64,000 nt of DNA from Patiria pectinifera (Eukaryota; Echinodermata; Asteroidea; Valvatida; Asterinidae), in contig CM057147.1 of assembly GCA_029964075.1 (NCBI GenBank), forward strand, positions 17,443,513 through 17,507,512. Direction: 5' to 3'. Position numbers and translations under genes: made by a program. Shown here piece after piece: positions 5,455 through 57,064 of the stretch. The notes below the pieces were generated by a model. The model saw only the letters and a program-made list of their open reading frames with translations, was not told the DNA's origin and made no database searches. Position 1 is the stretch's first letter, and each line of letters begins with the position of its first letter.

Positions 5455-5905
5455 CCAGTAAATAAACTTCCATAGACCCCAATGGTAAATGCTCCCACTT
5501 CAAAAATTCGGGAAAAATACTCACAACTCTCCAAGGTGTTCGAGACACACATCAAATTAAAGCTTATTTCATCATCTTTCAATTTCTGTTCAATTTACGG
5601 GGGGTCAACTGATGACTTTTAGGAGAAATTTCCATCTGAAGACGATCACCCCTGAAAATAGTCCTGAAGCCCATCGCCATTTTGAAAAACGATGCCTACA
5701 CTCCATTGCAAAGTAGAGCGCTTTTAGGGTCCAAATTACATCAAAATTACACAGAACTGCAAGCTCCAAGTCCTGTGCACGGTTTCCACCCATATTTTTA
5801 ACAAACCCTCAAGTTCATGGCCCACAGCATGCTCAAATACCGAAGATTTTGAGGGCATGCAAATCGTGATTTGGCCGGCGCAGGCAATTTCGGACCGATT
5901 TACTG
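5455..5905 (-). repeat. Dispersed non-coding repeat (CTTGGAGAGTTGTGAGTA family)
   Basis: Read on the minus strand, it shares CTTGGAGAGTTGTGAGTA, a GGGGTGATC segment and GAGGGCATGCAAATCG in order with a plus-strand copy at 14060-14490. Parts of the same family recur at 41.87-42.28, 51.37-51.79 and 61.54-61.93 kb, usually with TATGGGAGTCGATTTACAG at one end. There is no coding potential. The class is unknown. Confidence 0.6.
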
Positions 5906-6031
5906 GTCTGCACCCATCAGCCGTGCCTGTGTATAAAAACAGCCAGTGCGTGTTATTAATATTATGTCCTCCGATGCAAATTGATTGTACACCATTGGTG
6001 CACTCAAAGGCACTCAAATTTCCTTACAAAT

Positions 6032-8504: not shown

Positions 8505-8873
8505 TAGCTTGAGTAACTCCGGCTCCAATGTTCATCAGGAATTTGACATATAGAGCTGGAGCTAAAACTATGTTGTAGACACTAGATTCTAAGACTCCCT
8601 AAATAAACGGGAGTCTCTGTATCTGTATCACGAAAATGGTCCTTTTAACCTGTATTAACCCAACCCAGATTCTATGGTATGAGTATGAGGTATGTTTAGG
8701 AGAATCTGGGTTGAGATAATAGAGGGTAAAAGGACCATTTTCGTGATACAGATACAGAGAGTCCTGTTTTTAGGGCCTCTTAGAATCTAGTAGTAGTATT
8801 TACAACATAGTTTTATCTCCAGCTCTATATGTCGAATTCCTGATGAGCATTGGAGCTGGAGTTACTTAAGCTA
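8505..8873. mobile_element. Palindromic MITE with TA ends
   Basis: About 370 bp folding back on itself. TAGCTTGAGTAACTCC at the left pairs with GGAGTTACTTAAGCTA at the right, followed by matching arms around the loop (CATATAGAGCTGGAG and its complement; ATCACGAAAATGGTCCTTTT and its complement). The loop is near 8690. The TA at each edge fits Tc1/mariner-type target duplication. There is no coding sequence. Confidence 0.75.
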
Positions 8874-16880: not shown

Positions 16881-17072
16881 CGCGTAACTAAATGCATTCC
16901 TTTACTTTCATACCGAGCGTGATTAACATGTATTTATCGAGTACCGATGCATGGCAGACACACATCCCATCGATTGAACCACGTTGAGTATGGGGGGATT
17001 CACGAGGAGCGGGTTGGCTGGAGAAAAAAAAAATTAACCCCAAATATAAACGTCAATTACGTCATCACTCAA

Positions 17073-17577
17073 TACAGTGTGAGTAAAAATAGAATAAACG
17101 AAACCCAAATCTCGGGACAATTGTTTTAGTGAAGTTCAGCATGTAGCACTTTCAAAATGAAGAATCTGAAAGCCCAATTCATAAGCTTTCTTTTAGTACA
17201 AGAATCATTCAAAGCACTCATGTACTTTTCATGTTACGGAATTTTAAACACAACCGCCGTTTGAAAGTTTAGTCCACGGATCACAGAAAAAGGTGTGCGA
17301 TATTTCAGCAAAACGATAACGATTCACACATCCCTATGTAAATTGTTTTCGTTTTACTGAAGGACTTTCCTGTGATCCGTGGACAGAACTTCAAAACGAA
17401 TGTTGTGTTTAAAAGTCCGTAACTTGAAAGTACACTAGTGTTTTGAAATGATTCTTGTACTAAAAGAAAGCTTATGAATTTTGCTTTCATATTGTAAATT
17501 TTGAAAGTGCTACATGCAAAACTTCACTAAAAAAATGTTCCCGACATGTGGGTTTCGGTTTTTTGACTCGCCCTTTA
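17073..17577. mobile_element. Palindromic MITE (CAGKGTGAGT family), TA target
   Basis: About 505 bp of long inverted repeats. The GCACTTTCAAAAT.. and AAGCTTTCTTTTAGTACAAG arms pair across a loop near 17330. The ends are TACAGTGTGAGT and GACTCGCCCTTTA. The flanks ACTCAA-TA and TA-TTGCATATCTTGATTC correspond to one uninterrupted ACTCAGTACTGTAAATCTTG in the spacer-2 copy at about 26942, so the empty site has a single TA. Non-coding. Confidence 0.75.
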
Positions 17578-18120
17578 TTGCATATCTTGATTCACTGTTT
17601 CAGGCCTTTGGTCTTGTATCCACGCCCTTCCCGTTTGAAATTATCTTGGACTTTGCAAAGCCTGGATCTTTCTACTCTAGTTCAACTTCCTTATATTATC
17701 ACTCATTTCTGCAAACTATCAAATAAAAATCATCCTTATCTCCCTAACGGGTTTATTGCAGAGGAAAAACATGCCTAAATGAATCACACAAGAATACTTT
17801 GAAATGATTTGATTGCAGACAATTTAGGAATTTATTTGACTGAGTACAATTTTATTAGATTGCCGGACAAATATTTTTTTCATAATTTTCTCAAAGCTCT
17901 ACCTGGCTGGATTTCATCTAATTATCTATGAATATTTTGCCAGACAACAATTTTCGATATTTTTCCAATCGTATTTTTTCGACTGGTACGTTTTATAACA
18001 AAAACCAAAGCTTTATTGCTATTTTGTTATGCATCTACATTCGGCCGCTGAAAAAAAACACTTGCATTTTATTTTAGGTTAAGTTTGCGCAAAAGCAGAT
18101 GAAAGACTGGTTCACGGCCC
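17578..18120. other. Diverged spacer-2 sequence
   Basis: Old copy of the spacer that precedes MVRKRF-type lectins elsewhere. It shares TGATTCACTG.TTCAGGC, TCATTTCT.C..A..TCAAATAAA, and TTTAGGA.TTTATTTGACT-like blocks with 27.0-27.7 and 31.0-31.5 kb. No gene. Confidence 0.6.
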
Positions 18121-18600
18121 ATACAGGGTGAGTCTAAAAAACGAAACCCAAATGGTCGCAGGACCAATTTTTGAATGAAGTTTTGCCTGTGGCACTTTCA
18201 AAATATAGGATATGAAAGCCCAATTAATAAGCTTTCTTTTGGTACAAGAACCATTCAAATCACTGAAGTACTTCTCAAGGTACGGAATTTTGAACACAAA
18301 CACCGTTTTAAAGTTTTGTCCACGGATCACAAAAAAAGGTAAGTGTTCTTTTAGCAAAACGAAAACAATTCATATGCATCTCTATGAAAATTGTTTTCCT
18401 TTTTCCGAAAGAACACTTACCTTTTTTGTGATACGTGGACGGATTTTAAAACGGTGTTTGTGTTCAAAATTCCGTGACATGAAAAGTACACTAGTGATTT
18501 TAATGCTTCTTTCCTAGATTTTGAAAGTGCTACAGGCAAAACGTCATTCAAAAATTGGTCCTGCCATTTGGGTTTCGTATTTTGTTGACTCACCCTGTAT
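18121..18600. mobile_element. Palindromic MITE, second member of the same family
   Basis: About 480 bp. The terminus ATACAGGGTGAGTC pairs with GACTCACCCTGTAT, and the arms are highly complementary around a loop near 18365. GAAACCCAAATGG, GGCACTTTCAAAAT and TTAATAAGCTTTC.. are shared with the element at 17073. The CAGGGTGAGTC end with flanking TA fits a Tc1/mariner-mobilised MITE. Non-coding. Confidence 0.8.
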
Positions 18601-27263: not shown

Positions 27264-27819
27264 GTCTTCTTATGTGTTGACTTCAACGCCTCATCCAACC
27301 CGTTATCCCCCTCTCCCCTTCGACAAATCTTGGACTTACAAAAACTCAGCACCCCCCTCCCCCCCCTTAAAAAAAATCCTGGCTCCGTCACTCTTTAGTC
27401 GATTCACTTTATCCCTCATTTCTCCCAAATCTCAAATAAATATCACTCTAATCTCCCTGAATTAATTGACGCCTCTGAATTAAACATGTCAAAAGAATAC
27501 TTAAAAATGATTCAATGCTTACTGCAGACAATTTAGGAGTTTCTTAAACTAAATACAATTTTATTTCATTACTGGACACAGATTTCTTTTTCATAATTTT
27601 CTCAAAGTTCTAGCTGCCTGGATTTAAACTAATTATTTGTGATTGTTTTACCGTACATTATTTTTCCAGATATAATTTCTGTCCTCTCGATTTTTTTCTA
27701 AACAGATTTTTATACCAAGCGAGAGTTGAATTATTGTCTGACTGCAATACATTTGCGACGTATTATTATTTCTAAGCAAAACGTCGATTTTTTTTTCTTT
27801 TCTCATTTAAAAGTGAATA

Positions 27820-28905
27820 TAGGTTTTCCCGGCTATTTTAACACTTGTATCACACGAATTCCCTATATCGATACTTAAATTTCGTCCCCGAACATCGCCA
27901 AGCTCAATTCTCAAATTGAATTTCAAAAAGCCACCACTAGATTTCATTTAATGTTCAGTATAATTCAAATTGTTAGCATTCCGATTCGTCCGAAATCTTT
28001 GAAATTCGTCTCGTGAAGCAATCGGCGTTGAATTGAAAAAGCAAATTCGTTTTTTGTTATTCGTTTTAATGTTCTTGTCGTTACATTTCGTCTCTGGCGA
28101 CTTAAAACGTTACGATTAAAAATGTGCCCAATCTTTGGACTTGTTTGCGCATTAATTAAATTTTAATTTTTAACAAATATTTCCTTATAAATAAAAGTAT
28201 AGCTTTAAGTTTTGAGGTTTTTTTGACAATTAACATAAAAATCAGAAATTGAACTTTCACAATATGCTCTTTGCTTAGCATATGGAGATTAAGCATTAAG
28301 ATCAAACACCTTCGTTATGTTGCTCTTTGATATATGTATATGAATAAAACAACAGAAATACGATATGTCTATCAAAGAACAACATTAAAAAGTTCTTTGA
28401 ACTTAATGCTTAGTGTCCATGTCATAAGTGCATATTGTGAAATGTCAATTCCTGACTCTAATGTTAATTGTGAAACACAGAAATAAATATTCATACCTTA
28501 CAGCTAACTACTTTTATTTATACATATAAGGAAATATATGTTGAGTTATCATTGTTTTAATACGCATAATTCTTCAAATAAGTGTAAAGATTGGGCGCAT
28601 TTTCTAATCGTATACGATTTAAGTCACCGGGACGAAATGTAATGACAAGAACATTAAAACGAATGACAAAAAAAACGAATTTGCTTTTTCAATTCAACGC
28701 CGATTGCTTCACGAGACGAATTTCAAAGATTTCGGACGAATCGGAATGCTAACAATTTGAATTATACTGAACATTAAATGAAATCTAGTGGTGGTTTTTT
28801 GAAATTCAAATTGAGAATTGAGCTTGGTGATGTTCGAGGACGAAATTAAAGTATCGATATAGGGAATTCGTGTGATACAAGTGTTAAAATAGCCGGGAAA
28901 ACCTA
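27820..28905. mobile_element. 1,086-bp palindromic MITE with TA target duplication
   Basis: TAGGTTTTCCCGGCTATTTT at the left pairs with its complement ending CCGGGAAAACCTA at the right, and the arms stay complementary, with growing divergence, to a loop near 28330-28365. The flanks are GTGAA-TA and TA-CTATGAACGG. The paralogous spacers at about 31573 and 47473 read GTGAATACTA.GAACGG with a single TA, so this is an exact TA insertion. No open frame, so it was mobilised in trans, most likely by a Tc1/mariner-type or other TA-targeting transposase. Confidence 0.88.
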
Positions 28906-29255
28906 TACTATGAACGGCGTTTGTATTTCAGAAAAAAACAGCAATTATTCCTTAAGTTAAATTTGAAAACAGCACAGACAGAAGTTTTGGAATAATATAA
29001 TTACATACAATTTTCGAACGACTTTCAAAATTTTAAAACAATTTCTGTCGTATTTTACATTTAAGACTCTAACTAAAAGTATTACCTTCACAATTATCTT
29101 ATTTCAATTATCTTCACAGTCATTTCTATACATGTGTTTCGACAAAGTCCACGTATATTGGCCAGAATGAGTTTTTGTTTTGATTCGGATAGCTATCTAT
29201 GGAATCTGTATAGTCGCAAGGAGACTATTGACCAGTTCATAATGACATTGGGTTC

Positions 29256-31921: not shown

Positions 31922-34900
31922 TTAAAAGTGCAGCTGTGGTGCAGGGCGGATGCATATTGCAAGGCGTAGCTCATTGCATGGCAAGTCATTCCATTTCCCT
32001 TCTGACCATACCTCAGCGCAGTGCTCATAACCTCTGTCGTTACTAGGTTGGCCGTCAGCAAGGTCCCAATTCCTGAACTCCACTTCGTCAGTACCATCCT
32101 GACACTTCCAAGTACCTATCCAAAAAAAGCAGAAAACAGTGATAGATGGCAAAAATGAATGTTGCGTTTATCAGACTGAAACGAGTACGATTGTCTATTT
32201 GAAGAATTATTTTAAAGTCATTTTTATTGGGTTTATGGGTGTTGTGCACGTTGCGTTTTCCAAGTTATAAACAAACACTCACCGCAGCATACTTGCAGGG
32301 TACAACCTGTGTCGGCCATGGGGTTTATGATAAATCCACGATCCATAATCCATGCGTCTGTACGGAGACCGGTGGTCGATCACCCCTCGATGATCGCACC
32401 GATCATGGAGCAAATAAATAACTCCGTCCGTGCGCCTATATTCCTCTTGTTAATCGATACAATACCAATGGCACTCTTCTACACTGCCACCAGAATCATC
32501 CAAGTAAAAATATATGTCTGTGCGCGGTGATCGTAGAAAAGGGAAGGTTTTGGCATCAGCGAGAGCAATTGCTAGTACACATGCACACTACTGTATACAT
32601 TACGGCCATCCGATCAGATAGCGCTCAAGTTTTCTTAATCCGTGACGGCTAAATTATTGATTAGGCTCTATAGTCTGCAGAGGCGCGTACAATATGGAAT
32701 GGATTCAGTGGTTTAAAGCCATAACAAAACGTGCGGGCATGTGGTTTTTAAAGGGAACTACAGCCTGGAAAGTGCCCGATTGAGCTAGTGTATCGGAATA
32801 ACACCACCATCATTGTACATTTTGTAATATTTCGTACTAGAACGACCCAAAACCAAGCTATAGCCTATCCATAGTTAAACATTCAGTCGTAACGTGGTCG
32901 TCTTTTTGTGGACGTGTGAGAAACCACTTTTTGGGGGAGTTGGGGGGATTGGCGTTCGACGGGAAAAATGGTGCCCTTTCAACGCTGTCTGTATAGAAAT
33001 GCACCGAACCCTAGTTGTACCTCCGTGCCGGATTTGTTTACAAAATCGAGGATGACTTGGTTTTATCTACGACCATTTTACGGGGGTTATTTAGAGGGCG
33101 TGTCCAAGCGCTAATTTTATGACTGAGAGTAGGCTTTTCCGATTGATAAGACAACACAAACAAAGAAAAATACAACTGCAGAAAGTATATACGTTATGAC
33201 ATTATTGCTTTATTAACTTTATTATTGCTTTATTAAATCACTCGTGTTTTTATTTGTCTGTCCCAATGTATTTCTTCGCAATTATATCGTCATTGTAATG
33301 TTGACTAGTCTTTAATCGTCACTGTCTTCCTCGCTGACGTCTTCTTCATCTTGATGGAAAAATCCGTCAAATTTCATCTGGTGTTTAGGCATAATTCTGC
33401 CGAGAGCCTTTTGTACGCTAATGCCCTTATATATTTTTTCTTCGAGATTGTCCACAATATCTTGATGAGTATCGTTATCTTTCAGATGTAGGTAGCTTGA
33501 CAGAAAATCCCTGTACTTGTCAAAAAAGATTTGCTTGACCGCCCAGAGGGTCTTCCTATCGGCCTTTTCCTTGGCCTGATCTTCACCCATACCCTCGTTG
33601 ATGTACTTTTCATGTTTTTCGCTCCACATTTCACGAGTCGCTTCTTTGGACTCTTCCAACCAGTCTTGGAAAGTAGCATTGTCTTCTAATTCAGAACTAG
33701 ACTCATCTTCATCGTCATCTTCTACCTCCGAGTCCGTTTCCGAGCCCGATTCATCCACGTCAGGATGATCAGATTGAATAACCTCAATTTCAGAATCATC
33801 GTTAACCCCATTCATTTCAGATTCATCTTCAGCATGAGCGTTTTCGGTATGTCGCCAGAGATTATATCTCCGTCCAAAGCTTTTATCACACTGGTTACAA
33901 GCATGGGGTTTGACTGCAGAAAAAGTATTCATGTTGAAGTTATAAAGGCTGATTCACGAATGACAAGAAACGGATGAATTGGTTTAATATATATATTGTG
34001 CCGAGACCTGTCTGTTTCAGCTCATTTCCACATCCCCCCTCCTGCGCATGCTCTCTGCGTGCCTGTGCGCTCTTAATTCCGTGCTCATCCTACTCTTTTC
34101 CCTGCTCATCCTACTCTTTACCGTGCTCATCCTACTCTTTACCGTGCTCATCCTACTCTTTTCCCTGCTCATCCTACTCTTTTCCCTGCTCATCCTACTC
34201 TTTTCCCTGCTCATCCTACTCTTTTCCCTGCTCATCCTACTCTTTTCCCTGCTCATCCTACTCTTTTCCCTGCTCATCCTACTCTTTTCCCTGCTCATCC
34301 TACTCTTTTCCCTGCTCATCCTACTCTTTACCGTGCTCATCCTACTCTTTTCCCTGCTCATCCTACTCTTTTCCCTGCTCATCCTACTCTTTTCCCTGCT
34401 CATCCTACTCTTTTCCCAGCTCATCCTACTCTTTTCCCCGCTCATCCTACTCTTTTCCCTGCTCATTCTACTCTTTTCCCTGCTCATCCTACTCTTTTCC
34501 CTGCTCATTCTACTCTTTTCCTGCTCATCCTACTCTTTCCCTGCTCATCCTACTCTTTTCCCTGCTCATCCTACTCTTTTCCCTGCTCATTTCTGATAAT
34601 TCACTTATTCTCTGCAACCTTTAATGTACACGCTGAAGTATTTGCAATAATAACACGTTTGAGATTGGGCATCTATTTCTGTTACTCTTTTTTTATGACC
34701 AATCTCAAACGTGTTATTATTGCAAATACTTCAGCGTGTACATTAAAGGTTGCAGAGAATAAGTGAATTATCAGAAATGAGCAGGGAAAAGAGTAGGATG
34801 AGCACGGAAAAGAGAAGGATGAGCAGGGAAAAGAGTAGGATGAGCAGGGAAAAGAGTAGGATGAGCAGGGAAAAGAGTAGGATGAGCAGGGAAAAGAGTA

Positions 34901-37900
34901 GCATGAGCAGGGAAAAGAGTAGCATGAGCAGGGAAAAGAGTAGGATGAGCAGGGAAAGAGTAGGATGAGCAGGGTAAAGAGTAGGATGAGCAGGGAAAAG
35001 AGTAGGATGAGCAGGGAAAAGAGTAGGATGAGCAGGGAAAAGAGTAGGATGAGCAGGGAAAAGAGTAGGATGAGCAGGGAAAAGAGTAAGATGAACAGGG
35101 AAAAGAGTAGGATGAGCAGGGAAAAGAGTAAGATGAGCAGGGAAAAGAGTAGCATGAGCAGGGAAAAGAGTAGCATGAGCAGGGAAAAGAGTAGCATGAG
35201 CAGGGAAAAGAGTAGGATGAGCAGGGAAAAGAGTAGGATGAGCAGGGAAAAGAGTAGGATGAGCAGGGAAAGAGTAGGATGAGCAGGGTAAAGAGTAGGA
35301 TGAGCAGGGAAAAGAGTAGGATGAGCAGGGTAAAGAGTAGGATGAGCAGGGAAAAGAATAGGATGAGCACGGTAAAGAGTAGGATGAGCAGGGAAAAGAG
35401 TAGGATGAGCAGGGAAAAGAGTAGGATGAGCAGGGAATAGAGTAAGATGAACAGGGAAAAGAGTAGCATGAGCAGGGAAAAGAGTAGCATGAGCAGGGAA
35501 AAGAGTAGGATGAGCAGGGAAAAGAGTAGGATGAGCACGGAAAAGAGTAGGATGAGCAGGGAAAAGAGTAGGATGAGCAGGGAAAAGAGTAGGATGAGCA
35601 GGGTAAAGAGTAGGATGAGCAGGGAAAAGAGTAGGATGAGCACGGAATTAAGAGCGCACAGGCACGCAGAGAGCATGCGCAGGAGGGGGGATGTGGAAAT
35701 GAGCTGAAACAGACAGGTCTCGGCACAATATATATATTAAACCAATTCATCCGTTTCTTGTCATTCGTGAATCAGCCTTTATAACTTCAACATGAATACT
35801 TTTTCTGCAGTCAAACCCCATGCTTGTAACCAGTGTGATAAAAGCTTTGGACGGAGATATAATCTCTGGCGACATACCGAAAACGCTCATGCTGAAGATG
35901 AATCTGAAATGAATGGGGTTAACGATGATTCTGAAATTGAGGGCTCGGAAACGGACTCGGAGGTAGAAGATGACGATGAAGATGAGTCTAGTTCTGAATT
36001 AGAAGACAATGCTACTTTCCAAGACTGGTTGGAAGAGTCCAAAGAAGCGACTCGTGAAATGTGGAGCGAAAAACATGAAAAGTACATCAACGAGGGTATG
36101 GGTGAAGATCAGGCCAAGGAAAAGGCCGATAGGAAGACCCTCTGGGCGGTCAAGCAAATCTTTTTTGACAAGTACAGGGATTTTCTGTCAAGCTACCTAC
36201 ATCTGAAAGATAACGATACTCATCAAGATATTGTGGACAATCTCGAAGAAAAAATATATAAGGGCATTAGCGTACAAAAGGCTCTCGGCAGAATTATGCC
36301 TAAACACCAGATGAAATTTGACGGATTTTTCCATCAAGATGAAGAAGACGTCAGCGAGGAAGACAGTGACGATTAAAGACTAGTCAACATTACAATGACG
36401 ATATAATTGCGAAGAAATACATTGGGACAGACAAATAAAAACACGAGTGATTTAATAAAGCAATAATAAAGTTAATAAAGCAATAATGTCATAACGTATA
36501 TACTTTCTGCAGTTGTATTTTTCTTTGTTTGTGTTGTCTTATCAATCGGAATAGCCTACTCTCAGTCATAAAATTAGCGCTTGGACACGCCCTCTAAATA
36601 ACCCCCGTAAAATGGTCGTAGATAAAACCAAGTCATCCTCGATTTTGTAAACAAATCCGGCACGGAGGTACAACTAGGGTTCGGTGCATTTCTATACAGA
36701 CAGCGTTGAAAGGGCACCATTTTTCCCGTCGAACGCCAATCCCCCCAACACCACCAGAAAGTGGTTTCTCACACGTCCACAAAAAGACGACCACGTTACG
36801 ACTGAATGTTTAACTATGGATAGGCTATAGCTTGGTTTTGGGTCGTTCTAGTACGAAATATTACAAAATGTACAATGATGGTGGTGTTATTCCGATACAC
36901 TAGCTCAATCGGGCACTTTCCAGGCTGTAGTTCCCTTTAAAAACCACATGCCCGCACGTTTTGTTATGGCTTTAAACCACTGAATCCATTCCATATTGTA
37001 CGCGCCTCTGCAGACTATAGAGCCTAATCGATAATTTAGCCGTCACGGATTAAGAAAACTTGAGCGCTATCTGATCGGATGGCCGTAATGTATACAGTAG
37101 TGTGCATGTGTACTAGCAATTGCTCTCGCTGATGCCAAAACCTTCCCTTTTCTACGATCACCGCGCACAGACATATATTTTTACTTGGATGATTCTGGTG
37201 GCAGTGTAGAAGAGTGCCATTGGTATTGTATCGATTAACAAGAGGAATATAGGCGCACGGACGGAGTTATTTATTTGCTCCATGATCGGTGCGATCATCG
37301 AGGGGTGATCGACCACCGGTCTCCGTACAGACGCATGGATTATGGATCGTGGATTTATCATAAACCCCATGGCCGACACAGGTTGTACCCTGCAAGTATG
37401 CTGCGGTGAGTGTTTGTTTATAACTTGGAAAACGCAACGTGCACAACACCCATAAACCCAATAAAAATGACTTTAAAATAATTCTTCAAATAGACAATCG
37501 TACTCGTTTCAGTCTGATAAACGCAACATTCATTTTTGCCATCTATCACTGTTTTCTGCTTTCGAGCATTCGGAAATCCAATTACTTTTTGTATCGATCG
37601 GATTAACTTCGTAACAATACTAGTGCACGCGCCCTCTTCCGTCTATTGTTTGGGGATTAAAGATCCGACCAGCTGTTCGTTCACAGGGACTAACGTATGA
37701 AACTCATATTCGGGTTAAGATCCAAATGTACCATAAAAATATATATATTTTTTTCCATACCTTATGCAATCTTTCCCATAGAATAGGTCAAACTGTACCC
37801 GGTTCCTTATACCCACACCTATTCCCTATTCATCTCATCCATACAATAGGTAAAACTGTGCCCAGAATTCCCACATCCCTTAATTCATATTTATATCTAT

Positions 37901-38474
37901 ACATATTTGCATATTTACATATTGATGTGACCTTTACATATTTCTTTAGAAAAGGTCAAAGTGTGTTAAGAAGTCTACCTCCACTACTTATAGGAATTGA
38001 CAAACAATAATGATTCTTCGAAAGAAACAACGGTGATCTTTTGATTTGTTGAAATTCTGTGTTTGTGTAAGTTGATTAAATCATGAACATTCTTTTTTAT
38101 TTCTATGTTAAATCATGACACTACGAAATCATGTAATCCTTTGAAATAGACAAACCTTCTTCCTCGAGATCGTTGCAATTGATCCAAAACAGGTCTTCAC
38201 GCTGTTCCCCCGGCTGTAACACTAGCGTCTTGAGGAAATCAGTTTCCTCATCGGACTGTGGCAAGACCAAGGCACCTCCCATCTTGGTGCATTCTTCTTT
38301 TGCCTCAGACCAAGTCAGAGGCTCTATGATGGCTTTGTAGTATTTGCCGCCCCACTTGATCCAACTAGAAGGACCCGCCCCTCTAATGGAGGCCTTACAC
38401 ATCTCGTCACCACCAGTGCAACCCATGATCAGATGAAGGCTTATCAAGCCAAAGGTGAACCGTTTACGCACCAT
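31922..38474 (-). CDS. Lectin D: C-type lectin split by a 6-kb intron
   Basis: Exon 1 is 38156-38474 and exon 2 is 31922-32115. The 6,040-bp intron, against about 180-240 bp elsewhere in the array, contains a 5.4-kb palindrome. The acceptor (GGATAG) survives, with the palindrome starting 10 bases upstream of exon 2, so splicing could still work if the polypyrimidine and branch sites are replaced adequately. The product would be 170 aa: signal peptide MVRKRFTFGLISLHLIMGC, GPSSW and KYY (N-terminal cysteine pair lost), WSEAKEEC, FWINCNDL, TWKCQDGTDEVEFRNW, QPS, KWNDLPC, CIRPAPQLHF. The 3' third of exon 1 and the adjoining intron are of the B/C kind (LVLQPGEQREDL), so exon 1 is a chimera. Whether it is still expressed as one gene is uncertain. 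Confidence 0.75.
33312..33932 (-). CDS. Single C2H2 zinc-finger acidic protein, left palindrome arm
   Basis: 206 aa, intronless, from MNTFSAVKPHACNQCDKSFG. One classical C2H2 finger: C12, C15, H28, H33 (spacing C-X2-C-X12-H-X4-H). Then an acidic, Ser-rich segment (residues about 35-87), a Trp/Lys/Glu-rich helical segment (WLEESKEATREMWSEKH, LWAVKQIFFDKYRDFL), and an acidic tail ending EEDSDD. I know no family for the C-terminal part. One finger plus acidic tracts suggests nucleic-acid or chromatin association, but that is inference. The ATG context is AAC-ATG-A. A TATA-like run lies about 55 bp upstream and AATAAA signals occur within about 100 bp after the stop. The product is the same as that of the right arm apart from 12 extra residues starting VIQSDHPD. 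Confidence 0.75.
   Translation of the reverse strand: MNTFSAVKPHACNQCDKSFGRRYNLWRHTENAHAEDESEMNGVNDDSEIEVIQSDHPDVDESGSETDSEVEDDDEDESSSELEDNATFQDWLEESKEATREMWSEKHEKYINEGMGEDQAKEKADRKTLWAVKQIFFDKYRDFLSSYLHLKDNDTHQDIVDNLEEKIYKGISVQKALGRIMPKHQMKFDGFFHQDEEDVSEEDSDD
33985..33997 (-). promoter_or_regulatory. TATA-like box of left-arm zinc-finger gene
   Basis: TAATATATATATT, about 55 bp upstream of the ATG at 33932. The mirror copy is at 35728-35738. Confidence 0.5.
34081..34594 (-). repeat. 21-bp minisatellite, left arm
   Basis: About 24 units of 21 bp. The minus strand is purine-rich with core GCAGGGAAAAGAGTAGG; variants have GGTAAAG or GGGGAAAAG. Because 21 is a multiple of 3 and the unit lacks stops in several frames, long artificial frames (REKSRMS-, LLILLFS- or SYSFPCS-type heptads) appear on both strands. 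I do not regard these as genes. Confidence 0.92.
34771..35647 (+). repeat. 21-bp minisatellite, right arm
   Basis: About 41 units of the same 21-bp repeat in mirror orientation, with subtypes in blocks: AGTAGCATG units clustered at about 34897-34930, 35150-35200 and 35460-35490, and AAGATGAACAGG units near 35090 and 35440. The recurring block order suggests an internal higher-order duplication of about 300 bp. Stop-free in several frames but not coding. Confidence 0.92.
35728..35738 (+). promoter_or_regulatory. TATA-like box of right-arm zinc-finger gene
   Basis: ATATATATATT, about 55 bp before the ATG at 35792, between the minisatellite and the gene. Confidence 0.5.
35792..36376 (+). CDS. 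Single C2H2 zinc-finger acidic protein, right palindrome arm
   Basis: 194 aa, intronless. It is identical to the left-arm protein (33312-33932) except for a missing 12-residue block between DDSEIE and GSETDSEV, a clean 36-bp in-frame difference in the acidic linker. Zinc-finger residues are C12, C15, H28 and H33. The C-terminal half (DWLEESKEATREMW through FDGFFHQDEEDVSEEDSDD) is unchanged. Several AATAAA signals follow the stop (36434, 36454, 36465, 36474). The intact frame and in-frame length change suggest either selection on the protein or very recent arm homogenisation. Confidence 0.75.
   Translation: MNTFSAVKPHACNQCDKSFGRRYNLWRHTENAHAEDESEMNGVNDDSEIEGSETDSEVEDDDEDESSSELEDNATFQDWLEESKEATREMWSEKHEKYINEGMGEDQAKEKADRKTLWAVKQIFFDKYRDFLSSYLHLKDNDTHQDIVDNLEEKIYKGISVQKALGRIMPKHQMKFDGFFHQDEEDVSEEDSDD
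37563..38000. other. Unique intron sequence right of the palindrome
   Basis: About 430 bp of lectin D intron not found in the other lectin introns. It is AT-rich with CATTT-type runs and two diverged copies of an AATAGGT.AAACTGT.CCC block (about 37783 and 37854). At about 37990 it rejoins sequence shared with the B and C introns (GACAAACAATAATGATTCTT). Confidence 0.5.
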
Positions 38475-42341: not shown

Positions 42342-43125
42342 CAATAGAGGGCGCGCCACATGTTCTCGATCTCCACCATTAAACTCGGTTTGGGGGGCAA
42401 CTACTCAAGAAATACAAGATGTATTAGGCTTAACTGAATTTTCGCCCACTGATTTGTCATGATGTTTAGCATTAGGAGATTTAATTTCACTTGCAACCGC
42501 TAAAATAATAATTAAGCTATTATGACCGTAACAATACAGTGTTTTAAGCGCGACAAATACAATCCGAATGAAAGTCAATCTGGATTTTTCGCGTTTAACA
42601 CACTACATTGTTATTGCTCGACGGTTTCTCATGATATTTAATACTTCTAATGTTACACATCGTGGAAAATCAGTGCACGAAATTTCAGTTTCATACATCT
42701 TGTATTTCTTTAGTTATTTCTTGAAAACGACTTTAATCTTTTTGTTCAATATGTGCAGCATATTGGGCACGTGTGGTCTAGCGGTGGAGCACAGGATTCG
42801 TGATCGAGAGGTTGTGGGTTCGAGCCCCACCGTGGCCATGCGTGTTGTGCCCTTGAGTAAGGCGCTTTACCTCAATTACTCCTCTCAACCCAGGTGTTAA
42901 ATGGGTACCGGCATTGTTCATTGCTAGGAAGGTAACAGACTCGCTGTGGAGGACTTGTGGCGATCCCCCCACAGCAGCATATGAGTCTGACCCAATCGCT
43001 TCGAAGGAGAGATGGGCAATCCGTTCCTGTGAATACAGGTTCGTTCCCCTTTTTCGTCCCCCTATGTGCAGCATCCGTATTGATGCTTTGTGGAGACCAC
43101 TATTTATGTGGCGCGCCCTCTATTG
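42342..43125. mobile_element. 784-bp element with 20-bp perfect TIRs and a tRNA-like core
   Basis: The left end CAATAGAGGGCGCGCCACAT is matched by its exact complement at 43106-43125. Inside is a tRNA-like segment (42765-42837) followed by about 280 bp of non-coding tail. A second copy is at 51830-52600 with the same TIRs. This spacer region is missing from copy 1 (23098). Either a TIR element that captured a SINE, or a SINE inserted within one. Confidence 0.7.
42765..42837 (+). other. tRNA-like head of a SINE
   Basis: 73 nt. GGGCACG pairs with CGTGGCC (6 of 7) as an acceptor stem. GTGGG-TTCGAGC-CCCAC forms a perfect T arm including a B box (GGTTCGAGCCC), and GTCTAGCGGTGG is an A-box-like D arm. 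The anticodon stem does not pair, so this is a tRNA-derived Pol III promoter and not a functional tRNA gene. Confidence 0.6.
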
Positions 43126-43319: not shown

Positions 43320-44240
43320 TTAGGCCGATTTTCTGTACACCTTCACTTTGGATGGGTTTTGTCCGTGTTACTAACAATTATATTGACGCCAATAACCTGT
43401 GTGTTTTCTCTCAATATTTCAAAAGCTTACGTTGCCAATTATGCTCAAAATCTAGGAAAAAATTCAATCCAATAAAACTAATAGTTTTGGAGTTATCGTG
43501 TGACATAGGTCCGTGTGATTGTTTTTCTGTTTAAATAGTAAGGCCGATTATTTGGACACCGTGACTTCATTTTGGCAGTTTTGATGTCGATAAACTCTAT
43601 GGTTTTTACTCAATATTAAACAGGATTGTGTTGCCAGTCATGCTGAACAGTTAGGCAATATTTAAACCCAATAAAATACACAAAAGAATAGTTATCGTGT
43701 GACATAGGTATGATTGTTTTTCTGTTTAATAGTAAGGCCGATTATCTGAACATCGTGACTACATTTGGCAGTTTTGTTTTGGTTACACAAAAAATACATA
43801 TTGACGTCGGTAAACTCTATATTTTTACTCTATATTAAACAGGCTTGTGTTGCCAGTCATGCTGAAGAGTAAGGCAAATGTTAAATCCAATAAAATGAAA
43901 TAAAATTGAGTTATCGTGTGACATAGGTATGATTGTTTTTTCTGTTTAATAGTTAGGCCGATTTTCTGTAGACCGTGACTTCACTTTGGATGGGTTTTGT
44001 CGGTGTTACTAAATATTATATCGACGCCGATAATGTGTGTGTGTTTTCTGTCAATATTTAACCTGCTTGTGTTGCCAGTCATGCTAAACCTCAATGAAAA
44101 ATTTCAATCCAATAATAGTTTTAGAGTTATCGTGTGACATAGGTGAGATTGTTTTTTCTGTTTAATAGTAAGGCCGATTGTCTGGACACCGTGACTTCAT
44201 TTTTGCAGTTTTGTCTGTGTTACCAAAAATTATATTGACG
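43320..44240 (+). repeat. About 210-bp tandem repeat, 5 units
   Basis: Units open at about 43321, 43541, 43735, 43955 and 44171 with AGGCCGATT, at spacings of roughly 195-220 bp. Each has GTGTTGCCAGTCATGCT-like and TTATCGTGTGACATAGGT blocks. Confidence 0.82.
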
Positions 44241-45233
44241 CCGATAAACTCTTTATTTTCAAAAGGTATCAAAAGGGAGGGGACCCTCAACCCCCACGCC
44301 CACCCCGAACAAATGAAAAAAAAAAACCTTAATTGTCCTTAAGTTCCCAGAATAACGTCATCCCTCATTGCAAATCCTGATTCAGGCCTTTGGTCTTTTT
44401 ATGTGTTGACTGCAACGCCTCATCCGCCCCCTTCATTCCCTCCCCTTTGACAAATCTTGGACTTAAAAAAACTCAGCCACCCGGCCCCTCCCACTTCATT
44501 TTGAAATATTCTGGATCCGACACTCTTTAGTCGATTCTCCTTATCACTCATTTATACCAAATCTCAAATAAAAATCACTTTTATCTCCCTGAATTAATTG
44601 ACGCCCCTGAAATTAAAGATTGCAAGAGAATACTTTGAAATGATTTGATACTCACTGCAGGCAGTTTAGGAGTTTCGTTTACTAAGTACCATTTTATTAG
44701 ATTGCCGGGGAAAAAAATTGTCGCACAATTTCTCACTGTTTTTGTTTCAGCTGCCTGCTGGATTCAATCTTATTTTGGTAATTTGACGTTAACTTCGCTT
44801 CAAAAGGTGAAGTCTTTTTTTAGCTCTAAGAGTGTACCTTAATATAATTGTATATAATTACTTTGTAACTTCAACAACATAGTTTCATCATGTGCCTTAA
44901 ATTACAAAGAAAAGTTGAAAAATTCAAAAATTAGTACTTTCTACATCTAAATATTTCATTGTCAATAACATGTCTACGCAGATGCATTTAATCTACTGAG
45001 TTCTAAAACTTAACATCGAACAGCGTTTAATTGTCATTTATTACAATTTCTTACCGACATCACAAGACTTTGACATCAAATTATTTACTTATCTTCACAG
45101 TCACTTGAATGGATGTGTTTTGACATTGGCAATCCATATTGGTCAGAATAAGTTTTATTTTGTTTTGGATTGAGATTTCGAATTTCTAGTCGCAAAGAGA
45201 CTATATTTGACCAGTCATAATGACATAGGGTTT

Positions 45234-45917
45234 TTAAAAGTGCAGCTGTGGTGCAGGTCGGACGCATATGGCAAGGAGTTGTCGATCACATGGCAAGTCA
45301 TTCCATTTCCCTTCTGGCCATACCTCAGCGCAGTGCTCATTAGAATTCGCGTAATCGGGTTGATTGTCTGCCCAATTCCTGAACTCCACCTCGCCAGTTC
45401 CATCCTGACACTTCCATGTACCTATAAATCAAAAACAAACATGCAAATGTTGGAATCGACAAACAATAAGGCCTATGATTCTTTAAACGAAGCACCTCTG
45501 ATCTTTTATTTGTTGAAATTCTGTTAGTAATTGTGCCTCCTGATTCTTTACACCTCCTAACAATTCTGTGAAACAAAAAAGTCGAACATAGAATTTCAAC
45601 AAACCTTCCTCGAGATCGCTGCAATTGATCCAAAACTCGGATGGAATTGGCTCCAGCAGCAGGAGGAAATCAGCTTCCTCCTGAGACCGCGGCACGACCA
45701 AGACACTTCCCATCTTGATGCACTCCTCTTTGGCCTCAGACCAAGTCAGAGGGTTCACGGTGGCTTTGTAACATTTTCCACCCCACTGGATCTAAGTAGA
45801 AGGACACGCCCCTCTACGACCACCAATGGAGGCCTTACACATCTGGTCACCACCAGTGCAACCCATGATCAGATGAAGGCTTATCAAGCCAAAGATGAGC
45901 CGTTTAGACACCATCAT
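45234..45917 (-). pseudogene. Lectin E: MMVS-type lectin with a nonsense codon
   Basis: Exon 1 is 45605-45917 and exon 2 is 45234-45421; the 183-bp intron keeps its GT and AG. Codon 42 (45792-45794) is TAG, where the close paralogue G has TGG (Trp42, the W of the CPSTW motif). The rest of both exons is open, with intact KCY, WSEAKEEC, FWINCSDL, QPD and KWNDLPC. A single G-to-A change therefore truncates the protein soon after the signal peptide. Near-identity to lectin G elsewhere means the lesion is recent. It could be a sequencing error or a polymorphic null allele. Confidence 0.85.
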
Positions 45918-48008
45918 CTCTCAGGCCTCACTCAACTGGTGTCTGGTTCTGAAATGATGACTGCATATCGTGTTGAATCATCCAAACAGAAAAATATCGC
46001 AGCACTGGTCCTCATATTTTCTTTTAATTAAGAGTGGAGATACCAAGACACGATGGACACTCCTCCTTTTGTATCTTAGACAATAGACCCTGTGCGTTGA
46101 GGGCGTCTTGGATGGTATTCTTTGTTATATTAATTTGTTCACGGTGACTGCACCAAAGGTTTATTCAATACAAAACCACCCGCGTCCTCTTATTATGCAG
46201 AATTGATCGTTGGCAGTGAACGTTTGACTCCTGTTGCCATATTGTGTTTGTCATCGGGAGACATTTCAAATTTAATGTAAAAAATTAACCTGCGATTAAA
46301 AATGAGATGTCTGTCATGCATTTTGTACTCAATAAAGACATGTCAGTGAAATACTGCAACCCCCACGGTTAGTCACCAACAATCTTAAAATCGCTCGGCC
46401 GTGGTAATTAGAAAAGCGTGGGGCGTGGGCTGGAAACTACATGACACTATAGGGGGCGCTGTTCAGGACACGAATGCACATGCAGACGTGTGTGCTTACG
46501 TCCCTTGACCTTACATCAAAACGGTGCATTTAAAGCTTTTCTATACTATGTTCTCCATTTTCCATTACTATTTAACACACTTGGACTATTGGATAGTTGA
46601 AGGAAAACCTCAACATCGGCATATTTCGGTTTCTCACCACAAAATTGTGGGGGAGGGGGGAAATGTTCCAATGGCCCTTCCACCCCTTCAAACAAAAGGG
46701 GGCATATATCCTCCCCCCACTCCCAACCCCACCCCAGCCCAACCCCACCCCCACCCCAACCCCAGGATTTATGCCCTTGCCCAGGGCATAGGTAATGGAA
46801 CAACCAGAACCTCTGTTATTTCAAGCATTTCGCAAAGGCAGATCCAGGGGGAGGGGACCCCATCCCCCACCCACACCGAAAACTAATGGAAAAACCTCAA
46901 ATTTTCTTAAATTTCCCGGAATACCGTCATCACTCATGACTGTTAATCTCGATTCACTGCTTCAGGCCCCTCCCCGATCGACAAATCTTGGACTTACAAA
47001 AACTCAGCCCCCCCCCCCCCCCCTCCCCCTTTAAAAAAATCCTGGTTCCGTCACTCTTTGGTCGATTCTCTTTATCCCTCATTTCTCCCAAATCTCAAAT
47101 AAATATCACTCTAATCTCCCTGAATAAATTGACGCCTCTGAATTAAACATGCCAAAAGAATACTTGAAAATGATTCGATGCTTACCGCAGACAATTTATG
47201 AGTTTATTTCACTAAATACCATTTTATTAAATTACTGTACACAGATTTCTTTTTCATAATTTTCTCAAAGTTCTAGCTGCCTGGATTTAAACTGATTTAT
47301 TATGATTTTTACCGTATATTATTTTCAAGATATAATTTCTGTCCTCTCGATTTTTTTCTAAAGGGATTTTTATACCAAGCGAGAGTTGAATTATTGTCTG
47401 ACTGCAATACATTTGCGACGTATTATTATTTCTAAGCCAAACGTCGATTTTTTTCTTGTTGTCTCATTTAAAAGTGAATACTATGAACGGCGGATGTATT
47501 TCAGAAAAACAGCAAATATTCCTTAAGTTTAATTTGAAAACAGCACAGACAGTAGTTTTGGATTAATATAATTACATACAATTTTCCAACCACTTTCTAA
47601 AATTTAAAACAATTTCTGTCGTATTTTACATTTAAGACTCTAACTAAAAGTATTACCTTTACAATTATCTTATTTCAATTATCTTCACAGTCATTTCTAT
47701 ACATGTGTTTCGACAAAGTCCACGTATATTGGCCAGAATGAGTTTTTGTTTTGATTCGGATAGCTGTTTGGAATCTGTATACAGTCGAATCTCGTTAGTA
47801 CAAACTCTGTTAATACAAAATTCTGGTTTATAACAAACCCTTGGTCCCGACTGTGCATTTATGTGCACAATGAATGAGACTGATATTCCTCTTAATACAA
47901 AATTCTGATATAACAACCAATTTGGCTAGGTCCGAACGAGTTTGTATTAACCAGACTCGACTGTAGTCGCAAGGAGACTATTGACCAGTTCATAAGGACA
48001 TTGGGTTC
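45918..48008. repeat. Array spacer 2, copy 3
   Basis: Between lectins E and F. It contains the C-rich tract (46710-46766), a long C run near 47008-47024 and a 182-bp pogo/Tigger-like MITE (47782-47963). It lacks the 1.09-kb MITE, reading GTGAATACTATGAACGG at about 47473. No gene. Confidence 0.8.
47782..47963. mobile_element. 182-bp pogo/Tigger-like MITE, TA target
   Basis: The ends are CAGTCGAATCTCGTTAGTAC and its imperfect complement ending AGACTCGACTG. The CAGTCGAATCTCGTTA terminus is of the pogo/Tigger kind. The flanks read CTGTA-TA[element]TA-GTCGCAAGG, while lectins A and D have CTGTATAGTCGCAAGG at the same place (about 19019 and 31873). Exact TA duplication, no coding capacity, about 45 bp beyond the stop codon of lectin F and so within its likely 3' UTR or flank. 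Confidence 0.88.
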
Positions 48009-51829: not shown

Positions 51830-52600
51830 CAATAGAGGGCGCGCCACATATTCTCGATCTCCACCACTAAACTCGGTTTGGGGGGGGGCAGCTACTCAAG
51901 AAATACAAGATGTATTAAACTGAATTTTCGCCACTGATTTGTCATGATGTTTAGCATTAGGAGATTTAATTTCACATGAAACCGTTAAATAATTAAGCTA
52001 TTATGACCGTAACAATACAGTGTTTTAAGCGCGACAAATACAATCCGAATGAAAGACAACCTGGATTTTGCGCGTTTAACACACTACATTGTTATTGTTC
52101 GACGGTTTCTCATGATATATAATACTTCTAATGTTACACATCGTGGAAAATCAGTGCACGAAATTTCAGTTTCATACATCTTGTACTTCTTCAGTTGTTT
52201 CTCGAAAACGACTTTAATCTTTTTGTTCAATATGTGCAGCATATTGGGCACGTGTGGTCTGGAGCACAGGATTCGTGATCGAGAGGTTGTGGGTTCGAGC
52301 CCCACCGTGGCCATGCGTGTTGTGCCCTTGAGTAATGCGCTTTACCTCAATTACTCCTCTCAACCCAGGTGTTAAATGGGTACCGGCATTGTTCAATGCT
52401 GGGAAGGTAACAGACTCGCTGTGGAGGAGGTGTGGCGATCCCCCCACAGCAGCATATGAGTCTGGTCCAATCGCTTCGAAGGAGAGATGGGCACTCCGTT
52501 CCTGTGAATACAGGTTCGTCCCCCTTTTTCGTCCCCCTGTGTGCAGCATCCGTATTGATGCTTTGTGGAGACCACTATTTATGTGGCGCGCCCTCTATTG
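51830..52600. mobile_element. Second copy of the tRNA-like TIR element
   Basis: The same 20-bp TIRs (51830-51849 and 52581-52600). The tRNA-like part (52246-52312) is 67 nt: six bases (AGCGGT) of the A-box region are missing relative to 42765-42837, so this copy has probably lost its internal Pol III promoter. The B box and acceptor pairing are kept. Confidence 0.7.
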
Positions 52601-52796: not shown

Positions 52797-53490
52797 TAGG
52801 CCGATTTTCTGTACACCGTAACTTCACTTTGGATGGGTTTTGTCCGTGTTACTAACAATTATATTGACGCCAATTACCTGTGTGTTTTCTCTCAATATTT
52901 CAAAAGCTTACGTTGCCAGTTATGCTCAACCTCTAGGAAAAATTCAATCCAATAAAACAAATAGTTTTTGAGTTATCGTGTGACATAGGTCTGTGTGATT
53001 GTGTTTCTGTTTAAATAGTAAGGCCGATTATCTGTACACCGTGACTTCATTTTGGCAGTTTTGATGTCGATAAACTCTATGGTTTTTACTCAATATTAAA
53101 CAGGATTGTGTTGCCAGTCATGCTGAACAGTTAGGTAATATTTAAATCCAATAAAATACAAAAAACAAATAGTTATCGTGTAACATAGGTATGATTGTTT
53201 TTCTGTTTAATAGTAAGGCCGATTTTCTGTAGACCGTGACTTCACTTTGGATGGGTTTTGTCGGTGTTACTAAATATTATATCGACGCCGATAACTGTGT
53301 GTTTTCTGTCAATATTTAATCTGCTTGTGTTGCCAGTTATGCTCAACCTCTAGGAAGAATTTCAATCCAATAATAGTTTTAGAGTTATCGTGTGACATAG
53401 GTGAGATTGTTTTTTTCTGTTTAATAGTAAGGCCGATTGTCTGGACACCGTGACTTCATTTTTGCAGTTTTGTCTGTGTTACCAAAATTA
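52797..53490 (+). repeat. About 210-bp tandem repeat, 4 units
   Basis: Units open at about 52797, 53026, 53215 and 53432. One unit fewer than at 43320-44240. Confidence 0.8.
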
Positions 53491-54528
53491 TATTGACGCC
53501 GATAAACTCTTTATTTTCAAAAGGTATCAAAAGGGAGGGGGACCCTCAACCCCCACGCCCACCCCGAACAAATGAAAAAAAAACTTAATTGTCCTTAAGT
53601 TCCCAGAATAACGTCATCCCTCATTGCAAATCTTGATACAGGCGTTTGGTCTTGTTATGTGTTGACCGCAACGCCTCATCCGCCTCCTCATTCCCCCCCC
53701 CCTTTGACAAATCTTGGACTTAAAAAAAACTCAGCCACCCGGCCCCTCCAACTTCATTTTGAAACATTCTGGATCCGATACTCTTGTCCCGATTCTCCTT
53801 ATCACTCATTTATACCAAATCTCAAATAAAAATCACTTTTATCTCTCTGAATCTGAATTAAAGATTACAAGAGAATACTTTGATATGATTTGATACACAT
53901 TGCAGACAGTTAAGGAGTTTCTTTCACTAAGTACTATTTTATTAGATTACTGGACAAAGAATTTGTTTCACAATTTCTCACTGTTTTTGTTTTACCTTCC
54001 TGCTGGATTCAATCTTTATTAATTCATAATTATTATCATATTATTGAAACTTACTTGTTTTCAGCTTTTATTTTGGTAATTTGACGTAAACTTCGATTCA
54101 AAAGGTGAAGTCTTTTTTTTAGCTCTAAGAGTGTACCTTAATATAATTTTATATAATTACTTTGTAACTTCAACAACATAGTTTCATCATGTGCCTTAAA
54201 TTAAAAAGAAAAGTTGAAAAATTAGCACTTTCTACATCTAAATATTTCATTGTCAGTAACAGAAATGTCTATGCAGATGCATTTAATCTACTGAGTTCTA
54301 AAACTTAACATAAAACAGCGTTTAATTGTCATTTATTACAATTTCTTACCGACATCACAAGACTTTGACATCAAATTATTTACTTATCTTCACAGTCACT
54401 TGAATGGATGTGCTTTGACATTGGCAATCCATATTGGTCAGAATAAGTTTTATTTTGTTTTGGATTGAGATTTCGAATTTCTAGTCGCAAAGAGACTATA
54501 TTTGACCAGTCATAATGACATAGGGTTT

Positions 54529-55235
54529 TTAAAAGTGCAGCTGTGGTGCAGGTCGGACGCATATGGCAAGGAGTTGTCGATCACATGGCAAGTCATTCCA
54601 TTTCCCTTCTGGCCATACCTCAGCGCAGTGCTCATTAGAATTCGCGTAATCGGGTTGCTTGTCTGCCCAATTCCTGAACTCCACCTCGTCAGTTCCATCC
54701 TGACACTTCCATGTACCTATAAATCAAAAACAAAACTAAATAAATAACAAATAAACACATGCAAATGTTGGAATCGACAAACAATAAGGCCCATGATTCT
54801 TTAAACGAAGCACCTCTCATCTTTTATTTGTTGAAATTCTGTTAGTAATTGTGCCTCCTGATTCTTTGCATCTCCTAACAATTCTGTGAAACAAAAAAGT
54901 CGAACATAGAATTTCAGCAAACCTTCCTCGAGATCGCTGCAATTGATCCAAAACTCGGATGGAATTGACTCTAGCAGCAGGAGGAAATCAGCTTCCTCCT
55001 GAGACCGCGGCACGACCAAGACACTTCCCATCTTGATGCACTCCTCTTTGGCCTCAGACCAAGTCAGAGGGTTCACGGTGGCTTTGTAACATTTTCCACC
55101 CCACTGGATCCAAGTAGAAGGACACGCCCCTCTACGACCACCAATGGAGGCCTTACACATCTCGTTACCACCAGTGCAACCCATGATAAGATGAAGGCTT
55201 ATCAAGCCAAAGATGAGCCGTTTAGACACCATCAT
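54529..55235 (-). CDS. Lectin G: C-type lectin with QPD (galactose-type) motif
   Basis: Exon 1 is 54923-55235 and exon 2 is 54529-54716; the 206-bp intron is GT..AG. The product is 166 aa. Signal peptide MMVSKRLIFGLISLHLIMGC, then one CTLD: C38-P and KC49Y (N-terminal disulfide), C66, WINC99, WKC109 (likely extra disulfide), QPD 125-127, C135, WND 144-146, C149 and C157. QPD plus WND is the textbook galactose-type Ca2+ site, so this is the best candidate in the array for classical Ca2+-dependent galactose/GalNAc binding. It is the functional sister of pseudogene E, 9,295 bp away. Confidence 0.9.
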
Positions 55236-57064
55236 CTCTCAGGCCTTACTCAACTGGTGTCTGCTTCGGAAATGATGACTGCATATCGTGTTGAATCATC
55301 GAAACAGAAAAATATCGCAGCACTGGTCCTCATTTTCTTTTAATTAAGAGTGGAGATACCAAGACACGATGGAAACTCCTCCTTTTGTATCTTAGACAAT
55401 AGACCCTGCGCGTTGAGGGCGTCTCGAATGATATCCTTTGTTATATTAATTTGTTCACGGTGACTGCACCAAAGGTTTATTCAATACAAAACCACCCGCG
55501 TCCTCTTATTATGCAGAATTGATCGTTGGCAGTGAACGTTTGACTCCTGTTGCCATATTGTGTTTGTCATCGGGAGACATTTCAAATTTAATGTAAAAGT
55601 TAACCTGCGATTAAAAATGAGATGTCTGCCATGCATTTTGTACTCAATAAAGACATGTCAGTGAAATACTGTAACCCCACGGTTAGTCACCAAAAATCTT
55701 TAAATCGCTCGGAAGTGGTAATTAGAAAAGCGTGGAGCGTGGGCTGGAAACTACATGACACGATAGGGGGCGCTGTTCAGGACACGAATGCACATGCGGA
55801 CGTGCGTGCTTACGTCTCTTGACCTTACATCAAAACGGTGCATTTAAAGCTTTTCTATACTTTGTTCTCCATTTTCCATTACTATTTACACTTGGACTAT
55901 TGGAAAGTTGAAAGAAAACCTCAACATCGGCATATTTTGGTTTCTCACCACAAAATTGCGGGAAGGGGGAGATGTTCCAATGGCCCTTCCATCCCTTCAA
56001 CAAAAGGGGCATATATCCTCCCCCACCCCCACTCCCAAGCCCACCCGAACCCCACCCCAGGATCTACGCCCTTGCCCAGGGCATTGGTAATGGAACAACC
56101 AGACCCTCTGTTATTTCAAGCATTTCGCAAAGGCGGATCGGGGGGGGGGGGAGCCCATCCCCCACCCACACCGAAAACTATTTTTAAAAAATTCAAATTT
56201 CCTTAATTTCCCGGAATAACGTCATCACTCATGACTGTAAATCTTGATTCACTTCTTCAGGCCCCTCCCCGATCGACAAATCGTGGACTTACAAAAACTC
56301 AGCCCCCCCCCCCTTAAAAAAATCCTGGATCCGTCACTCTTTAGTCGATTCTCTTTATCCCTCATTTCTCCCAAATCTCAAATAAATATCACTCTTAGAT
56401 CCCTGAATTAATTTACGCCTCTGAATTAAACATGTCAAGTCTTGAAAATGATTTGATGCTTACTGCAGACAATTTTGGAGTTTATTTCACTAAATACCAT
56501 TTTATTAAGTTACTGTACACAGATTTCTGTTTCATAATTTTCTCAAAGTTCTAGCTGCCTGGATTTAAACTAATTACTTGTGATTATTTTACCGTACATT
56601 ATTTTCAAGATATAATTTCTGTCCTCTCAATTTTTTTCTAAACGGATTTTTATACCAAGCGAGAGTTGAATTATTGTCTGACTGCAATACATTTGCGACG
56701 TATTATTATTTCTTAGCTAAACGTAAAGATGTTTTCTTCTTGTCTCATTTAAAAGTGAATAACGTTCGTATTTCAGAAAAATAGCAATTAATGTTTTAGA
56801 GGTTCAACTTGAAAACAGCACAGACAGTACTTTTTAATTTTAATTTTCGAACCGCTTTTTAAAATTTAAAACAATTTCTGTAGTATTTATACATTTAGTA
56901 AAACTCGTTAACAAAAAGGTATTCCAATTATCTTAAATGTCATTTCTATACATGACTTTGTTTCGACAAAGTCCACGTATATTGGCCAGAATGAGTTTTT
57001 GTATTTTGATTTGGATAGCTGTTTGGATAGCTATAATTGACCAGTTCATAATGACATTGGGTTC
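55236..57064. repeat. Array spacer 2, copy 4
   Basis: Between lectins G and H. No element insertions. It contains the C-rich tract (about 56018-56062) and G/C runs at about 56139 and 56304. No gene. Confidence 0.8.

Follow-up and report, generated by a model that had tools for sequence, protein, structure and literature searches.

The window analysed here is a stretch of 64,000 nucleotides from the genome of the starfish Patiria pectinifera (C19:17443513-17507512), and the host genome that was searched comprises 613.5 Mb. The lectin-like genes in the window form a tandem family, and one of them is interrupted at 32124-37988 by an element which consists for the most part of one large palindrome, both arms of which carry a zinc-finger gene. 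The window element is probably a left-truncated copy of a non-autonomous snap-back family which is derived from Polintons (Mavericks) and is moved by helper Polintons.

The palindrome proper (32124-37562) consists of a left arm with a truncated outer end (32124-34672, plus strand), a loop of 22 nt at the axis (34673-34694), which is continuous with the sequence of non-palindromic relatives, and a right arm (34695-37562, minus strand). In a self-BLAST 32126-34590 pairs inversely with 37562-35133 at 97.3%, the variable minisatellite included; when the minisatellite is set aside, 5 substitutions in 1,906 aligned bases separate the arms. The minisatellite repeats a 21-bp unit 24.6 times on the left (34077-34590) and 41.6 times on the right (34777-35647), and the order of its variants is not the same in the two arms. 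Both zinc-finger open reading frames (ORFs) are open and directed outward from the axis. The left copy (33312-33932, minus strand) codes for 206 amino acids with one C2H2 finger, an acidic linker and a predicted helical C-terminal part; the right copy (35792-36376, plus strand) codes for 194 amino acids and has 12 codons fewer in frame, corresponding to a 36-bp in-frame indel which is the only one between the arms outside the minisatellite. The first-pass annotation, made from the letters of the window, had described a giant near-perfect palindrome with inverse arms of 2.5 and 2.9 kb, each with a zinc-finger gene and a minisatellite, and this description is borne out. Its loop of 30 bp is obtained when the flanking mismatch is counted in; strictly the loop is 22 nt. 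Rfam gave no match anywhere in the window, and IMG/VR gave no relative of the arm end or of the minisatellite.

Empty sites are provided by the lectin paralogues: with seven such stretches the homology stops at 32119-32127 and restarts at 37989 or a few bases later, and the insertion is therefore placed at 32124-37988; in the paralogues only about 26-74 bp lie between the two homologous pieces which flank it. The insertion exceeds the palindrome by 426 bp on the right side. This right terminal segment (37563-37988, plus strand), which in intact window-type copies is found on both sides and of which the left one is lost here, ends in ACTACT (37983-37988, plus strand), that is AGTAGT read inward, the motif given for Mavericks in PMC8097293. 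It is followed by TATAGG (37989-37994), the surviving copy of the presumed 6-bp target, and TATAGG is found at the same point in three uninterrupted lectin paralogues. The window copy lacks the left terminal segment together with whatever TATAGG stood on that side, and the intron has also lost a part. The first-pass annotation had noted that no target duplication is visible and that the palindrome begins 10 bases from the splice acceptor of the lectin gene, and it had proposed a search for empty sites. All three points hold: the duplication is not seen because the left end is deleted, the right end at 37988 being kept; the left arm starts about 10 bases (by eye) from an acceptor whose letters are conserved in the paralogues, and does so because the left terminal segment and part of the intron have been lost; and the uninterrupted sites are supplied by the paralogues in the window.

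A 1-kb piece of the arm was used as probe against the host genome, and 40 of 219 candidates were scored. The 48 scored matches have 91-100% identity, many of them as inverse pairs 2-5 kb apart, and merging by eye gave at least 30 elements, so that the search for other palindromic copies which had been suggested for this locus found many. Twenty-two of the 30 were examined (the window copy, the 20 regions L009-L028, and L041). As we read them, both arms are present in 13 of the 22, six are palindromes in which an arm or the centre has been lost or broken (L009, L014, L016, L019, L020 and L028), and three are non-palindromic (L017, L023 and L024). The copies with both ends located measure 2.2-8.8 kb. 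In intact window-type copies a terminal segment of about 430 bp flanks the arms on both sides with AGTAGT at its outer end, and AGTAGT/ACTACT was seen at the ends that could be located, L028 and L041 each having one end in which 5 of the 6 letters agree. The termini fall into at least three types (the window type, one of about 1.2 kb in L020-L025, and that of L026), all with AGTAGT, and from this variety it follows that ends and cores have been exchanged. The terminal inverted repeats (TIRs) of the non-palindromic copies are about 340 bp long and 83.5% alike in L017, about 1.18 kb and 95% in L023, whereas in the palindromic copies the entire element is an inverted repeat.

The flanks tell that these elements have moved. 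By eye the 6-bp flanks agree in 11 copies; of 16 copies checked by a script, 15 have an exact target duplication of 6 bp, and with L026 (AAGCTA, by eye) the count becomes 16 of 17. Each located duplication has its own sequence. Left out of this count were the window copy, L014, L019, L020 and L024, in which one end was not found.

How the palindrome arose can be read at its axis. In L017, L023 and L024 the sequence continues through the axis; L023 reads GGTCATCTTTTTCTATTACTCTTTTTTTAT, and then TCCAAACTATTTT. Ten loci have one junction in common (junction 1; the window, L010, L012, L013, L015, L019, L021, L022, L025 and L026): after a parental stretch the reading reverses at AT and goes into the complement of its own GGTC. 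The letters of the loop are parental in L019, intermediate in L013 and of a shared derived version in the other eight, which is consistent with a direction from parent to palindrome. L011 keeps the parental sequence past junction 1 and reverses only further on, where the 6-bp pair AATGTA/TACATT encloses 32 nt (junction 2); it therefore represents an independent fold-back event. In L027 and L041 the axes apparently lie inside the minisatellite. These alignments show that the axis is a junction in the parental sequence at which the reading reverses; in the best reading, the inverted duplication took place inside the element by fold-back.

The strongest competitor to a fold-back is that two linear copies of the element, whose breakpoints differed slightly, were joined head to head by end joining with microhomology. 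This could yield the same junctions as a snap-back, which counts against our reading; moreover, the inverted microhomology at junction 1 amounts to no more than 2 bp (AT), which is compatible with end joining, and inverted 6-mers like the one at junction 2 are no commoner than in shuffles (6 observed near that junction against 7.2). With the 6-mers at chance level the short loops, and not the microhomology, become the telling point. In both events the turning points are only 22 nt (measured in L023) and 32 nt apart in the parental sequence, a spacing which is expected of a hairpin loop but not of independent breaks across kilobases, and we regard head-to-head joining as unlikely.

The snap-back mechanism could work as follows. 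Polintons would be linear DNA molecules replicated by protein-primed strand displacement, and a nascent or displaced strand of the ancestral element may have snapped back on itself and been copied. The product would be a linear palindrome whose two tips both carry an origin, so that helper Polintons providing polymerase, terminal protein and integrase could replicate and insert it. In each cycle the single strand would fold into a perfect hairpin, which would homogenise the arms, and after insertion the arms would diverge like long terminal repeats. The inverted duplication would thus have occurred by fold-back within a mobile element, prior to its spread.

The similarity of the arms was analysed with a maximum-likelihood tree of 29 arms, among them 11 within-copy pairs. 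Ten of the 11 pairs come out as sister arms, eight with strong support and two (L021 and L025) with 94/87. Divergence within these pairs is 0.10-0.44%, as against 0.33-2.64% to the closest arm from a different copy, and by raw distance the partner arm is nearest in 9 of 11 pairs. This fits a re-making of both arms via the hairpin in each cycle, with drift thereafter; gene conversion once the element is inserted would also explain arms as similar as these.

The assignment to Polintons builds on the ends and on the genes of the non-palindromic copies. According to PMC8097293, vertebrate Mavericks have 5'-(AGT)2//(ACT)2-3' ends or, alternatively, (AG)3 ... (CT)3, make 6-bp duplications, have TIRs of 46-1,447 bp and a length of about 17 kb, and carry end repeats which permit jumping-back during protein-primed replication. 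The L017 element (3166-8491, target duplication TCTATA) has a death-domain-like gene, a PC4-like gene with a broken frame, ORFx and the zinc-finger gene, all rightward, and L023 and L024 are similar. In L023 PC4 (E 4.5e-9) and Death (E 1.1e-5) are above the Pfam cut-offs; Death is so also in L024, not in L017. The death-domain-like gene of L023 lies across the inner edge of the TIR (1123-1359 and 5255-5644), complete on one side and truncated on the other, a layout which looks as if the TIR had expanded into the gene.

The same genes were met in L042, a 4.4-kb stretch on contig C7, which codes for an integrase core (E 6.9e-10) and a chromodomain (E 2e-11), both passing the Pfam cut-offs. Beyond the chromodomain follow homologues of ORFx (68% identity) and PC4 (62%), in the order seen in L017, L023 and L024; in IMG/VR no relatives of ORFx were found. 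L042 ends in the start of an unmatched rightward ORF. A piece of 137 amino acids, which by its motifs we take to be the C-terminal part of a Polinton polymerase, matches 2.7 kb past L042, and the presumed PolB of L042 was likewise assigned by a motif. In the host genome this piece has 673 candidates, of which 150 were scored, all with at least 90% identity, and likely helpers are thus abundant. Both groups are concentrated on C7, which makes up 7.3% of the genome and holds by eye 11 of the 30 elements of the palindrome family and 52 of the 150 scored matches of the polymerase piece.

Autonomous members of the family were looked for. The longest TIR pair seen, at C15:6068600-6077600, turned out to be a further palindrome with its axis inside the minisatellite. 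L014 and L019 were also rejected, since they are read as nested insertions in a Polinton. The presumed polymerase sequence reaches the right end of the L019 element and is found just beyond the right end of L014, with the packaging ATPase and other Polinton genes on the left side; in the flank of L019 the ATPase (Pox_A32, E 1.9e-8) is above the cut-off and a piece of rve integrase (E 2.6e-7) reaches 31.3 bits against a cut-off of 32.6. The two seem to have been inserted at different points of the Polinton polymerase gene, each without its left part. No ORF for PolB, integrase, ATPase or capsid is present in the window copy, and none of these genes gave a match within L009-L028 and L041, except in the flanks of the nested L014 and L019. 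With no core Polinton genes found, the family can at most be a non-autonomous derivative; the end motif, the 6-bp duplications and the genes shared with L042 make it most likely that the family is Polinton-derived.

Several further observations weigh against this derivation or against the snap-back scheme. No member whose interior was read has a polymerase or an integrase of its own, and the presumed polymerase pieces match no polymerase family in Pfam, NCBIfam or PDB, which reduces our confidence. When the 40 scored TIR matches were compared by eye with the 150 listed polymerase places, the nested L019 was the only one to come within 20 kb of such a place, and two 5' flanks of the polymerase have no AGTAGT near the start of their homology. 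Just 2 of these 150 places have, by eye, a PC4 match at a distance of 10 kb or less, and it is therefore with a minority of Polintons that the shared genes connect the family. In L041 the target is not duplicated (2 of 6 bases agree). Among the arms, L021 has one which by raw distance is closer to L020 (0.33%) than to the opposite arm (0.44%), and those of L018 differ by 3.3% and do not pair on the tree; L023 and L024 cluster with the palindromes L020-L022 and L025 despite their parental axis, from which it follows that recombination has occurred between the two forms.

It is very improbable that the element is a foldback (FB, TU, Galileo) or Mutator-like DNA transposon. Foldback transposons have very long inverted arms with tandem repeats and make 7-9-bp target duplications. 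The first-pass annotation had drawn this parallel, and with respect to architecture it stands, the window element having long inverted arms with internal tandem repeats; however, the duplications of the family are 6 bp, a length which, like the end motif, agrees with the published Mavericks, and the integrase-bearing, Polinton-like L042 has two genes in common with the non-palindromic relatives. The same annotation had left undecided whether the palindrome originated by transposition or by inverted duplication of a host gene. Transposition is supported by the palindromic copies and the 16 of 17 exact duplications; an inverted duplication did occur, not of a host gene but by fold-back within the mobile element. 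That a zinc-finger gene of the host was duplicated inversely in the lectin region without transposition, for which the ORF open in both arms might speak, is refuted by the at least 30 dispersed elements, their own target duplications and the multi-gene parent form. An assembly or sequencing artefact (a missed adapter or a foldback read) has a negligible probability: foldback artefacts do occur in long reads, as PMC12870357 describes, but the arms differ in substitutions, in the indel and in minisatellite length, and the same axis is found at 10 loci, 8 of which have their own located 6-bp duplication.

The zinc-finger protein gave few matches. It resembles the designed zinc-finger protein Aart (phmmer, E 1.9e-11), and Pfam zf-C2H2 scores 23.5 bits (E 7e-5), just under the cut-off of 25.2. 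An AF2 model has low confidence (pLDDT 60) with helices at 81-192, and it has no PDB match at E <=0.001. NCBIfam gave no match for the protein, and IMG/VR no relatives of it or of its C-terminal part. The single PHROGs match below E 0.001, to a replication initiation protein (E 8e-5, residues 33-165), was not built on. The pairwise pN/pS is 0.46 for 22 full 206-codon ORFs, 20 of them distinct, a sample which excluded broken frames and the 194-amino-acid copy of the window; judged by these codons, the ORFs are under moderate purifying selection. The gene product is probably a DNA-binding protein in the service of the element, for replication, end recognition or anti-silencing.

Compared with known systems the family is closest to Polintons, with which it shares the AGTAGT...ACTACT ends, the 6-bp duplications, TIRs of hundreds of bases and, in an integrase-bearing Polinton-like element of the host genome, the PC4 and ORFx genes. 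In contrast to the published Mavericks it is shorter, mostly palindromic throughout and without detected core genes, and its zinc-finger gene is doubled. The snapback satellite genomes of adeno-associated virus (AAV) are also self-complementary, with one parental end and its reverse complement around a loop, and are replicated by a helper (PMC8235507). They are, however, parvovirus particle genomes primed from a terminal hairpin, while here we have a chromosomal lineage and infer priming by a protein. The genomes of incomplete adenovirus particles are reportedly palindromic in form. The parent genome is linear and bears terminal protein, and the short DNAs come from its left end (Daniell, 1976; Daniell and Mullenbach, 1978, both as cited in PMC5033970), but they are transient forms which occur in virions and have not become fixed in the genome of a host. 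Inverted copies and hairpin-capped extrachromosomal DNA also result when replication forks switch template; this differs in taking place at host forks with no mobile element.

Among the literature matches listed there is no description of palindromic, foldback, nonautonomous or snap-back Polintons. We tentatively propose, as a possibility which we do not favour strongly, that the family represents self-perpetuating chromosomal "defective-interfering" Polintons: snap-back palindromes which parasitise helper Polintons, whose arms are re-made via a single-stranded hairpin in each cycle, which arise repeatedly, and which keep a doubled zinc-finger gene under selection. In this proposal it is the existence of a helper, the priming by a protein and the function of the zinc finger that we infer. 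The replication mode of Polintons has been deduced mainly from gene content. If the proposal is true, the palindromes are genomic fossils of protein-primed strand-displacement replication. On the snap-back reading as such, an axis which can be read base by base against the parent is, together with homogenised arms, sequence evidence of a snap-back, single-strand step in the Polinton life cycle. It also means that the snap-back form known from AAV particles can turn into a stable transposon family, and the divergence between arms offers an internal clock for dating insertions.

Some minor features of the window may be mentioned. The tandem array of lectin-like genes extends over 18650-64000 and contains long duplications (for example 43602-47772 and 52884-57027, 88.9%). 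A smaller palindromic insertion, 82.5% self-inverse, is found in a lectin gene at 27818-28907; its empty site is given by paralogous stretches at 31.57 kb and 47.48 kb, the duplication is TA, and the TIR is TATAGGTTTTCCCGG. The palindromic elements at 17070-17580 and 18121-18600 are mutually related (73-78%), and the second has the ends ATACAGGGTGAGTC or similar. Further short palindromic elements are located at 42403-42714, 51894-52195 and 8505-8873, the first two of which are related and start with ACTCAAGAAATACAAG.

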